Part shown: positions 3,156 to 53,234 of the stretch, in pieces
Numbering within the stretch: position 1 is the first letter of the stretch
How the letters are laid out: every line of letters starts with the position of its first letter
Assembly: GCF_011039075.1 (NCBI RefSeq)
Contig: NZ_JAAKEG010000011.1
Span: 1 to 64,000, forward strand
DNA length: 64,000 nt
DNA from: Adlercreutzia sp. ZJ304
GTDB lineage: Bacteria > Actinomycetota > Coriobacteriia > Coriobacteriales > Eggerthellaceae
Direction of reading: 5' to 3'
Position numbers and translations under genes: made by a program
The notes under the pieces: generated by a model
The model's database searches: none
Told to the model about the DNA's origin: nothing
Seen by the model: the letters and a program-made list of their open reading frames with translations, nothing else

Positions 3156-4436
3156 ATGGACATTCGAGAAATGAGCCGAAATCAAATTACAGACGAATTG
3201 GCGCACCTGAAAAGCAGTTTTGAAAAATATGCCGCAGCGGGACTTAAATTGGATATGTCACGCGGAAAGCCATGCGCAGAGCAGCTGGATTTGTCCCTTC
3301 CAATGTTGAATTTGTTGCAAACCGCAGACGATTGCATAGACGAAAATGGACTAGACTGCCGCAATTACGGCGTAATAGATGGAATCCCGGAAGCAAAGCG
3401 TCTAATGGCTTATATGTTAGATGATAAGCCGGAAAATGTTTTTGTATTCGGCAATTCCAGCCTTACGGTTATGTACGACACGATTGCACGCTGTCTCGAT
3501 TTTGGATGTTTAGGAAGCCTGCCGTGGGCACAGTTACCATGCGTCAAGTTCATATGTCCAACACCGGGATACGATAGGCATTTCTCAATTTTAGAGCAGT
3601 TCGGCATAGAAATGTTGCCTGTAGCGATGCTTGAAGATGGTCCCGATATGGATGAAGTTGAAAAACTGGTTGCAACAGACGCATACATTAAAGGAATTTG
3701 GTGTGTGCCAAAATACGCCAACCCTACAGGCGCTGTATATTCAGATGAAACTGTACGCAGGTTATCTTCTATGAAATGCGCCGCAGAAGATTTCCGCATA
3801 TTCTGGGATAACGCCTACTGTATACACGCACTAAGTGAAGACGCGCAGCAAAATGATGTTTTGCTGGACATAGGAGCAGCGTGTTGCGAAGCGAACAACC
3901 CAAACCGTTACTTCAAATTCGCCAGTACATCTAAGATAACATTTCCGGGCGCAGGCGTGGCAGCTATGGCTGCATCAGCAGAAAACATAGCCGAAACCAA
4001 ACGTCTATGCGGTGCGCAAATGATAGGGCACGATAAATTGAATCAGCTTAGGCATGTGCGATTTTTCCCAAACAAAGATGCACTTCTAGAACACATGCAA
4101 AAACATGCCGCAATATTGAGTCCAAAGTTCGATTTGGTACAACAAAAGTTAGAAGCAGGTCTTAGCGGCAGCGGAGTAGCCAGCTGGACACAGCCGCGCG
4201 GTGGCTATTTCGTATCGTTTGACGGACTTCCCGGAACAGCAAAACGCACAGTAGAATTGGCTCGCGAAGCAGGAGTTGTACTTACAGGTGCGGGAGCAAC
4301 ATGGCCGCACGGCAGCGACCCTCAAGACAAAAACATTCGCATAGCGCCCACAATGCCTTCGCTAGACGATTTAAGTCAAGCGCTAGACATATTTGTGTGC
4401 TGCGCAAAAATTGCCGCCTTAGAAACCTTAATGTAA
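3156..4436 (+). CDS. PLP-dependent aspartate aminotransferase (Asp_aminotransf, class Ic)
   Basis: A 426-residue fold-type I aminotransferase of the group described from Corynebacterium aspartate aminotransferase (Pfam Asp_aminotransf). It likely interconverts aspartate + 2-oxoglutarate with oxaloacetate + glutamate in the cytoplasm. Visible landmarks are LDMSRGKP near the N terminus (substrate contact), NSSLTVMYD, the Asn of KYANPTGAVYS, the Asp-Asn-Ala-Tyr segment WDNAYC, and the PLP-binding lysine in STSKITFPG. The length suits the family. GAAGGGAAG lies 8 bases before the ATG. The gene converges on yebC, and the 168-bp gap holds two copies of an unusual hairpin element. Confidence 0.85.
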   Translation: MDIREMSRNQITDELAHLKSSFEKYAAAGLKLDMSRGKPCAEQLDLSLPMLNLLQTADDCIDENGLDCRNYGVIDGIPEAKRLMAYMLDDKPENVFVFGNSSLTVMYDTIARCLDFGCLGSLPWAQLPCVKFICPTPGYDRHFSILEQFGIEMLPVAMLEDGPDMDEVEKLVATDAYIKGIWCVPKYANPTGAVYSDETVRRLSSMKCAAEDFRIFWDNAYCIHALSEDAQQNDVLLDIGAACCEANNPNRYFKFASTSKITFPGAGVAAMAASAENIAETKRLCGAQMIGHDKLNQLRHVRFFPNKDALLEHMQKHAAILSPKFDLVQQKLEAGLSGSGVASWTQPRGGYFVSFDGLPGTAKRTVELAREAGVVLTGAGATWPHGSDPQDKNIRIAPTMPSLDDLSQALDIFVCCAKIAALETLM

Positions 4437-4446
4437 ATCCAACAGT

Positions 4447-4504
4447 GAAACCGGGAAAGCAGAGTGAAGGCTGCGAAGCTTCTGAACGTAGCTTTCCCGG
4501 TTTC
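4447..4504 (+). repeat. Long-loop hairpin element, copy A1
   Basis: A perfect 14-bp stem (4447-4460 with 4491-4504) encloses a 30-nt loop (4461-4490). The loop carries the conserved core AGTGAAGGCTGCGAAGCTTC followed by TGAACGTA. The same loop recurs at 4543-4572, 53118-53147 and 53191-53220 on stems of different sequence. It lies ten bases past the stop codon of the aminotransferase gene, in the sense of that gene. Function is unknown; it may act as an elaborate terminator or an RNA-binding-protein target. Confidence 0.8.
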
Positions 4505-4526
4505 GCAACTGATGCATGCTACATCA

Positions 4527-4588
4527 GCAAAATCGGGGAGACGGAGTGAAGGCTGCGAAGCTTCTGAACGTAGTCTTCCCGATTTTGC
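4527..4588 (+). repeat. Long-loop hairpin element, copy A2
   Basis: A 16-bp stem (4527-4542 with 4573-4588) contains one G-T opposition (4538/4577), which would be a G-U pair in RNA read from the + strand but a C-A mismatch in RNA from the minus strand. The 30-nt loop (4543-4572) differs from that of A1 at one position. The spacer between A1 and A2 has a small hairpin (TGATG 4510-4514, CATCA 4522-4526). A2 ends 17 bases before the 3' end of yebC. Confidence 0.8.
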
Positions 4589-4604: not shown

Positions 4605-5405
4605 CTACTCGTCTAGCTGGTCAGCTATTTCATCGGTTATATCTGCTGTGTGGTAAACGTTTTGCAAATCTTCAAGCTCTTCTAGCTTGTCTATAAGACG
4701 CATTACCTTCTTCGCATCGGATAGGCTTACCTCTGTAGGGTTGGTAGCTATCATGGTAAGCTCGGCACCCTTAGTTTCAACACCCGCCTCTTCCAAAGCT
4801 TTTTTCACAGCCATCAAATCGGATGGACCGGTGTATACAATCCATTCATCTTCGGCATCTTCGTAATCGTCGCCACCCGCTTCGGCTACAGCAAGCATGA
4901 ATTCTTCCTCATCAGCTGCAGCGCCATTAGGTCCAATCGGGTTTTTCTTATCGCCAGTCTCAACCTCTTTTGGCACAACGATCTGACCTTTACGCTCGAA
5001 CTGGAACGCAACGCTGCCCGAGGTGCCCAAGCTACCACCTGCGTGGCTAAATGTACTGCGCACATCGGCAGCTGTACGATTGCGATTGTCGGTAAGGGCT
5101 TCGCAGTACACCGCAATACCAGCAGGACCGTAACCCTCATACACAACCGTCTCGTAATTCGCAGCATCTTTGCCGGAACCAAATGCCTTATCTATTGCAG
5201 TCTTTATCTTATCCTTCGGAAGCGAATAGCCTTTCGCTTTCTCGATAGCCGCAGCCAGAGACGCATTGTTATCGGGATTAGGATCGCCGCCTTCCTTAGC
5301 CGCCACAGTTATGTTACGCGACAGTTTAGAAAACAGCGCTGAGCGCTTGGCGTCCTGCGCAGCTTTACGATGCTTGGTTGTTGCCCATTTAGAATGCCCT
5401 GACAT
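4605..5405 (-). CDS. yebC: YebC/PmpR family protein (TACO1-like)
   Basis: A 266-residue member of the YebC/TACO1 family, whose members act on ribosomes at difficult proline stretches or as DNA-binding regulators. The family N terminus is plain: MSGHSKWATTKHRKAAQDAK, then a helical domain, then YEGYGPAGIAVYCEALTDN in the central domain. The acidic C-terminal part ends in ADQLDE. The protein is slightly longer than the usual ~245 residues because of a short insertion around residues 145-165 (DKKNPIGPNGAAAD). Shine-Dalgarno GGAAGG precedes the ATG. No ruvC or ruvAB neighbours are present. Confidence 0.92.
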   Translation of the reverse strand: MSGHSKWATTKHRKAAQDAKRSALFSKLSRNITVAAKEGGDPNPDNNASLAAAIEKAKGYSLPKDKIKTAIDKAFGSGKDAANYETVVYEGYGPAGIAVYCEALTDNRNRTAADVRSTFSHAGGSLGTSGSVAFQFERKGQIVVPKEVETGDKKNPIGPNGAAADEEEFMLAVAEAGGDDYEDAEDEWIVYTGPSDLMAVKKALEEAGVETKGAELTMIATNPTEVSLSDAKKVMRLIDKLEELEDLQNVYHTADITDEIADQLDE

Positions 5406-42633: not shown

Positions 42634-42653
42634 GGCGGGGAAATATCCCCGCC
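42634..42653 (-). terminator. Hairpin upstream of the DUF3800 gene
   Basis: GGCGGGG (42634-42640) pairs with CCCCGCC (42647-42653). On the minus strand ATTTTAATG follows. It lies 21 bp before the DUF3800 start, so it may be a terminator of incoming transcription or an attenuator. Confidence 0.5.
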
Positions 42654-42692
42654 TTAGGGTGGACCAGGGTCTTTCGACCAGCCCAGAATATG

Positions 42693-53081: not shown

Positions 53082-53103
53082 CACACTAGCTTTTCATATT
53101 AAT

Positions 53104-53161
53104 AATCGAAGGAGGGTGAAGTGAGGGCTGCGAAGCTTCTGAACGTAACCCTCCTTCGATT
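53104..53161 (+). repeat. Long-loop hairpin element, copy A3
   Basis: A perfect 14-bp stem (53104-53117 with 53148-53161) with the 30-nt loop 53118-53147. The stem sequence (AATCGAAGGAGGGT) differs from A1 and A2 on both arms but still pairs fully. In the loop, position 8 is G where the others have A; that base faces a U in the proposed inner hairpin, so G-U keeps the pair in + strand RNA. It starts 22 bp past the ppk1 stop. Confidence 0.8.
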
Positions 53162-53176
53162 CTATTTTGCATTAGT

Positions 53177-53234
53177 GAAATCGGAAAGACGGAGTGAAGG
53201 CTGCGTAGCTTCTGAACGTAACCTCTTCCGATTT
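53177..53234 (+). repeat. Long-loop hairpin element, copy A4
   Basis: The 30-nt loop 53191-53220 matches the family (one change, GCGTAG for GCGAAG, in the unpaired tip of the inner hairpin). The outer stem pairs perfectly over nine distal pairs (53178-53186 with 53226-53234), while the loop-proximal part is irregular. TTTTTAT follows, so A4 looks most like a working terminator. It ends 14 bp before the glmM stop, in the gap between ppk1 and the converging glmM. Confidence 0.72.

Follow-up and report, generated by a model that had tools for sequence, protein, structure and literature searches.

Palindromic hairpins with a constant folded tip and variable paired stems in Adlercreutzia sp. ZJ304, probable copies of a dispersed element that behaves like Rickettsia palindromic elements

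Palindromes inserted in frame in essential genes are known mainly from Rickettsia, where the Rickettsia palindromic elements (RPEs) occupy flexible parts of proteins. To our knowledge, neither an enzyme that mobilises RPEs nor the way in which they move has been described. RPEs are palindromic hairpins of about 100-150 nt that lie in frame in unrelated genes as well as between genes and that form several families in one lineage (PMC10969869, PMC6649704), and their arms are described as losing identity over time (PMC6649704). REPs are short palindromes at the 3' ends of genes, sometimes paired and sometimes intragenic; they carry a GTAG or CGTC tag, and members of one family share a conserved stem of 5-13 bp (PMC3733652). 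Two other kinds of palindrome are translated: the inverted repeats in mitochondrial genes of Nematomorpha, whose arms stay matched and for which template switching has been proposed as the cause (PMC6649704), and PARCELs, which are palindromic, translated and patchily distributed DNA (PMC2996958).

The tandem hairpins that we analysed in Adlercreutzia sp. ZJ304 belong, in our judgement, probably to a small palindromic element that has become dispersed over the genome and behaves like RPEs. As in Rickettsia, a palindromic hairpin is present in many dispersed copies in one genome and is inserted in frame in six unrelated protein genes, and orthologues without the insertion were found for LeuS, MurD and RsmB. 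The likeness is one of kind, drawn from behaviour and published descriptions, and not one of sequence family; the statement of an earlier, sequence-only reading of this DNA that no described family fits is correct for sequence but not for behaviour. For an RPE one would expect stems conserved in the family and decaying after insertion, whereas here the tip is the sole constant part, the stems vary from copy to copy with differences that are largely compensated, and the host belongs to another phylum. Across genera, mean between-copy identity is 0.87-0.89 for the tip compared with 0.42-0.47 for the arms, which are nevertheless 86-94% paired despite an identity of about 45%. With REP/BIME sequences (GTAG, CGTC) the hairpins share the form of short palindromes at gene 3' ends that are sometimes paired or intragenic, but their stems are hypervariable and 16-25 bp long, their constant tip is a structured 30-nt segment, and both the GTAG/CGTC tag and a conserved short stem are absent. 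The palindromes of Nematomorpha are likewise inverted repeats with matched arms inside translated genes; their arms, however, encode conserved parts of the proteins and enclose no constant tip, whereas here the whole hairpin is extra sequence. PARCELs resemble the hairpins in being translated palindromic DNA of patchy distribution, but they are tandem protein domains of 25 residues, many of them in membrane-targeted proteins, whereas the inserts that we find in housekeeping enzymes are single or few in number and use several reading frames and either orientation. A constant tip with renewable stems is thus unlike RPEs or REPs as they have been described, while the behaviour is of the RPE kind.

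Window copies and anatomy of the element

Each element consists of a 16-bp stem, extended to as much as 25 bp in some copies, and a constant 30-nt tip, GGAGTGAAGGCTGCGNAGCTTCTGAACGTA. In the folded tip a 3x3 internal loop comes first, then a 2-bp helix (columns 20-21/42-43) and, beyond the GA/CUGA internal loop that separates the two helices, a 5-bp helix with a GCGN tetraloop. The window, by which we mean the whole stretch of 64,000 nucleotides that was analysed, contains four copies of the tip core (at 4463, 4545, 53120 and 53193), compared with none in 100 shuffled sequences. They form two tandem pairs, A1 with A2 and B1 with B2, each of which fills one intergenic gap between convergent genes. 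The first gap, with its flanking genes, and the second pair are as follows.

3156..4436, + strand: aspartate aminotransferase type Ic (NF053594), flanking gene; NCBIfam 620 bits
4445..4460, + strand: A1 5' stem arm, 16 nt; fold -35.5 kcal/mol, z -6.0; covariance model 82.4 bits
4461..4490, + strand: A1 constant tip, with the 3x3 internal loop, 2-bp helix, GA/CUGA internal loop, 5-bp helix and GCGN tetraloop; exact core match; cross-genus covariation of the inner 2-bp helix
4491..4506, + strand: A1 3' stem arm; fold and covariance model
4527..4542, + strand: A2 5' stem arm; fold -34.4 kcal/mol, z -5.9; covariance model 83.9 bits
4543..4572, + strand: A2 constant tip; core match and covariance model
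4573..4588, + strand: A2 3' stem arm; fold and covariance model
4605..5405, - strand: YebC/PmpR regulator, convergent flanking gene; NCBIfam 314 bits
53102..53163, + strand: B1, arms 53102-53117 and 53148-53163, tip 53118-53147; fold -31 kcal/mol, z -5.6; covariance model 76.5 bits
53176..53236, + strand: B2, shifted imperfect stem, tip about 53191-53220; covariance model 60.2 bits; energy z -0.8

A1 begins 9 nt past the stop codon of the aminotransferase gene, and 17 nt separate the end of A2 from the stop codon of the YebC/PmpR gene on the opposite strand. On both strands A1, A2 and B1 are far more stable than shuffled sequence; the folding energy of B2 is unexceptional, yet the covariance model recognises it. 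The description with which this analysis began, tandem hairpins with a constant loop on variable but paired stems, therefore stands, and so do the two further copies that it had placed at 53104-53234. Some of its detail needs correction. The stems that it gave as 14-16 bp are indeed long and paired, but RNA folding extends the outer stems of A1 (4445-4506) and A2 (4527-4588) to 16 bp, and the stems begin slightly further out than it had placed them. The 30-nt loop is constant but it is not single-stranded, since the two helices and the tetraloop lie inside it. Finally, the stems had been taken to be conserved only in their capacity to pair. Their covariation is strong, but their sequence is partly constrained: a loose consensus, AAATCGGGAAGGC, is common to the intergenic copies, and subfamilies exist, the arm GATTCTGGCGATGCGGAAGRGC recurring in intergenic copies and in HypF.

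Several variants of this plan were seen. In two other genomes (G087 and G122) the element is shorter, its stem adjoining the GA/CUGA loop directly. This loop is nearly invariant, and we compared it with the kink-turn, taking tandem G-A pairs and a 3-nt bulge between helices as the criterion; its favoured register (A24-U37, G/A25-U36) leaves a bulge of 2 nt as opposed to the 3 nt of a kink-turn. Three copies (L020, L025 and C25:68266) are chimeric, with arms from two stem types, and fit recombination between adjacent tips. Elsewhere in the window, a DUF3800-XI RNA (RF02975, 70 bits) lies at 42638-42685 on the - strand, directly 5' of an open frame starting MADLSVFIDESGDFG that by inspection resembles a DUF3800 protein.

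Distribution and sites of insertion

A search of this genome (2.0 Mb) with the loop pattern, allowing up to 3 mismatches, gave 38 places, and the reversed control gave none. A covariance model built from 28 copies gave 41 matches, two of which are duplicates from the overlapping contigs C6 and C32, leaving about 39 distinct copies. These two contigs share flanking genes as well as element loci, so that part of the assembly is present twice. With the model the element was found in 17 of 138 Eggerthellaceae genomes and in 10 of 48 genera, in agreement with the expectation of the sequence-only reading that related genomes would hold further copies. Its spread over these genera is patchy: from 35 or more copies for this genome in that search the counts fall to 24, 11, 9, 8, 8 and 6 and then to singles, several relatives having one copy, and the other two genomes of the same genus have 2 copies and 1 copy. 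A sample of about 375 further genomes from the phylum gave no element; for these the first filter was coarse and sensitivity reduced. In a collection of named genomes, the exact-pattern matches with paired stems are Eggerthellaceae metagenome assemblies; pattern matches in Frankia, Roseovarius, Clostridiales and others had no paired stems where checked. A phage or plasmid origin was rejected, as there was no phage or plasmid match and two pattern matches in viral contigs lacked paired stems. Rfam gave no match at the gathering score, and the best weak hits were microRNA precursor models, far below threshold and at chance level. The open-access literature, of which coverage was incomplete, yielded no report of such elements in Coriobacteriia.

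Between genes, the element lies behind stop codons. Of the 27 intergenic copies in this genome, 15 are between convergent genes and 12 between codirectional genes, and none is between divergent genes, against a background in the window of 31 codirectional, 9 divergent and 8 convergent gene pairs. Among the 12, L101 would more correctly be counted as convergent, since the length cut excluded two small genes. Most of these copies begin no more than 40 nt past a stop codon, and some end in T runs (L015, L029). All this would be expected of an RNA that serves the host as a bidirectional terminator or as a stabiliser of mRNA 3' ends, its structure being selected on the transcript and the coding copies being accidental, and the highly structured tip with its covarying inner helix would also suit such a role. 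We nevertheless consider this explanation unlikely. A terminator scan, which permits loops of only 3-8, was empty at both window loci, where the GC-rich hairpin, short loop and U tract of an intrinsic terminator are not found, the T runs being confined to a few other copies. In addition, counts of 39, 2 and 1 within one genus are unlike those of a housekeeping terminator.

A further argument against a host RNA comes from the copies inside protein genes, 11 of which lie in frame in six genes of this genome (one in leuS, two in murD, one in rsmB, two in hypF, three in a P-type ATPase gene and two in an acyl-CoA dehydratase activase gene). The copies in LeuS, MurD, RsmB, HypF and the ATPase need transcription to pass through them. 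Since coding copies must be transcribed and translated through, the role of terminator or 3'-end protector, which the sequence-only reading had offered among its possibilities, cannot define the element, although a secondary role as a terminator or 3'-end hairpin is possible for the intergenic copies. Most coding copies translate as LRSEA(S/T/A)QPSLRS and two as QKLRSxHS. In the ATPase gene (L096, G000:C29:15380-15602), two of the three copies lie in a 90-nt direct tandem duplication that keeps the frame.

Alignment with orthologues showed that the coding copies are lineage-specific inserts, with empty sites in relatives for LeuS, MurD and RsmB. RsmB is longer here by 33 residues (99 nt), which lie between RKCG and KQIER and have no counterpart in any of the 26 other genomes aligned. 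The insert is the whole hairpin, cleanly inserted with both arms within the 33 residues, and the only sign of a target duplication is an imperfect GAAATGCGGC/GAATGCAAC. The sister species G002 has its own rsmB copy at another site, which is empty in this genome. Mapped onto Thermus LeuS (1h3n), the LeuS insert comes between residues 234 and 240; the MurD inserts, mapped onto 3lk7, come between residues 160 and 165. These structures hold almost nothing at those positions. Each of the three genomes in the genus has its own, different LeuS and MurD inserts at identical places, most of them palindromic (L104, L105, L112, L120, L121, L122), which indicates that these surface turns are permissive hot spots of insertion. 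In other genera, where open-frame calls in GC-rich genomes are uncurated, in-frame copies occur in rsmB, in dnaX (named by inspection), in the same activase and in other genes, in further registers and in both orientations. Two sister species, G022 and G096, share an orthologous copy (L067/L260), and G096 has an extra tandem unit in another gene (L259 vs L071).

Orientation relative to transcription is also far from random in this genome. Copies between codirectional genes and copies within genes are without exception antisense to the gene concerned. The sites that count as independent number about 17 (two-sided chance about 2e-5), and the coding copies of G080 are likewise antisense. The rule is not universal, as the sense orientation is frequent in the genera of G022 and G024. 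A link to replication was judged unlikely, given that all orientable sites here are antisense to transcription, and mobility alone does not explain the bias. At G000:C25:68174-71323 (L095), a segment of 3 kb lies between two inverted copies whose stems are nearly the same. A composite transposon formed by this pair (C25:68174/71262) was considered and rejected, as the 3 kb hold, by inspection, an AbiEi-like gene, a truncated partner and unrelated genes; because the inverted identity reaches past the elements, the arrangement looks like a local inverted duplication.

Change in the stems

Three routes could give stems that differ and yet pair: selection for a folded RNA, de novo formation of stems from the target, and copying between arms. 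That the stems covary, as the sequence-only reading had proposed, was confirmed in both data sets. Pairing in this genome stands at 89.3% of cells compared with 71.8% after shuffling, with 135 two-sided changes compared with 46; in 44 copies from other genomes the values are 95.2% against 67.0%, and 272 against 80. If the partner is shifted by 1-3 columns in the other-genome copies, pairing falls to some 40-50%. The inner 2-bp helix of the tip also changes on both sides in other genera (C-G/U-A, G-C/A-U), which supports the fold within the tip. Three outcomes had been named in advance as counting against the original description: absence of further copies, a match to Rfam or to a REP family, and stems that do not covary. 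None of them came about.

Covariation by itself cannot separate arm copying from selection on RNA. Among closely similar stems in this genome, one-sided and two-sided changes are similarly rich in transitions (189:52 and 105:19), which is what the copying of ordinary mutations from arm to arm would give. In other genomes the two-sided changes are rich in transversions (94:48) whereas the one-sided changes are not (24:57). Simple point mutation followed by copying does not predict this excess and is to that extent disfavoured; the excess suggests that whole stems are sometimes exchanged. Copying between arms is also favoured by single loci: in the orthologous copy L067/L260, G022 and G096 differ at two base pairs, each changed by a compensated transversion (C-G to G-C, A-T to C-G), and the tandem units of G096 share spacers and tip but have different stems. 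A strand-specific wobble preference, which would mark selection on an RNA, gave no case for a host transcript in this genome, where one-sided mismatches favour neither strand (G-T 24, A-C 18, p = 0.44), although there is a weak bias towards the plus strand in G080 (17 to 5, p = 0.017). More generally, strong stem covariation, which is usually taken as proof of a functional RNA, can come from copying between the arms of mobile palindromes.

Origin and spread of the hairpins

The sequence-only reading had also raised a recombinase that acts on folded single strands. Mobility is well supported, but one particular agent, a Y1 (IS200/IS605-like, RAYT) transposase moving a REP-type element through folded single strands, we regard as distinctly improbable. 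In its favour are the tandem hairpin pairs 50-120 bp apart, in intergenic DNA at gene 3' ends; REPs have intragenic copies too (PMC3733652), and this genome encodes one strong PF01797 protein. The distribution of that domain, however, does not track with the elements: it was not found in G080 (24 copies), G087 (11), G122 (8) or G022 (6), the first two of these genomes being only about 85% complete, and it is present in element-free genomes such as G014 and G044. Inspection of flanks and arms found no GTAG or CGTC tag beside the stem, and the short, family-conserved stems of REPs (5-13 bp; PMC3733652) are the reverse of what is seen here. An insertion of the tip alone, after which the stem would be built on site as an inverted copy of adjacent host sequence, an idea that arose from the LeuS of G002 and a first RsmB alignment, would account for stems that differ but pair and for another palindrome, in the G002 LeuS, with the host codons VPLA in its outer stem, but we think it very improbable, since in RsmB it is refuted by the orthologues, the 33-residue insert including both arms while the preceding host codons align with the 26 insert-free relatives, and since stems share the consensus AAATCGGGAAGGC and subfamilies such as that of GATTCTGGCGATGCGGAAGRGC.

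A mobile palindromic element of the RPE kind remains our preferred account. Weighing against it, no excision or transposition event was seen, no mobilising enzyme was found, target duplications are indistinct and several relatives have only one copy. A mechanism can be suggested for it. The folded tip would be the identity tag of the element, recognised in trans by a putative mobilising enzyme, and new copies would arise via, or pass through, a folded single strand. Arm might then be copied onto arm, by template switching during replication or by repair of the folded intermediate, so that complementarity is kept; mutations in one arm would in this way appear in both, and stems would drift fast while remaining paired. 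Template switching that creates or maintains hairpins is documented in other systems (PMC8794818, PMC8604942), and it has been discussed for coding palindromes as well (PMC6649704). Copies would survive only at harmless sites, that is, behind stop codons, where the hairpins may double as terminators, and in flexible surface loops of proteins if the frame stays open. We put forward more tentatively, as something that may possibly be true, that the hairpins represent a class of mobile DNA whose sole heritable identity is the folded 30-nt tip, the stem being rebuilt in each round by arm copying from a folded single strand, and which invades housekeeping genes in frame. The tip, which is constant and structured, could be used as bait for the mobilising enzyme. 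The system is independent and active-looking, in gut Actinomycetota, with several genera and with sister species that have both orthologous and extra copies.

A second family of palindromes was noticed in Eggerthellaceae, with the core CGAGGACTGTYTGAGCGAATC, variable outer stems and often another palindrome nested in the tip. Among the 138 Eggerthellaceae genomes, 55 have its pattern, and most of those in genus g6 carry some 20-40 copies. In leuS of G001 (L112/L281) two copies lie in tandem and in frame, and others include L272-L290. This family may work in the same way, with identity held by the tip and stems maintained by arm copying.
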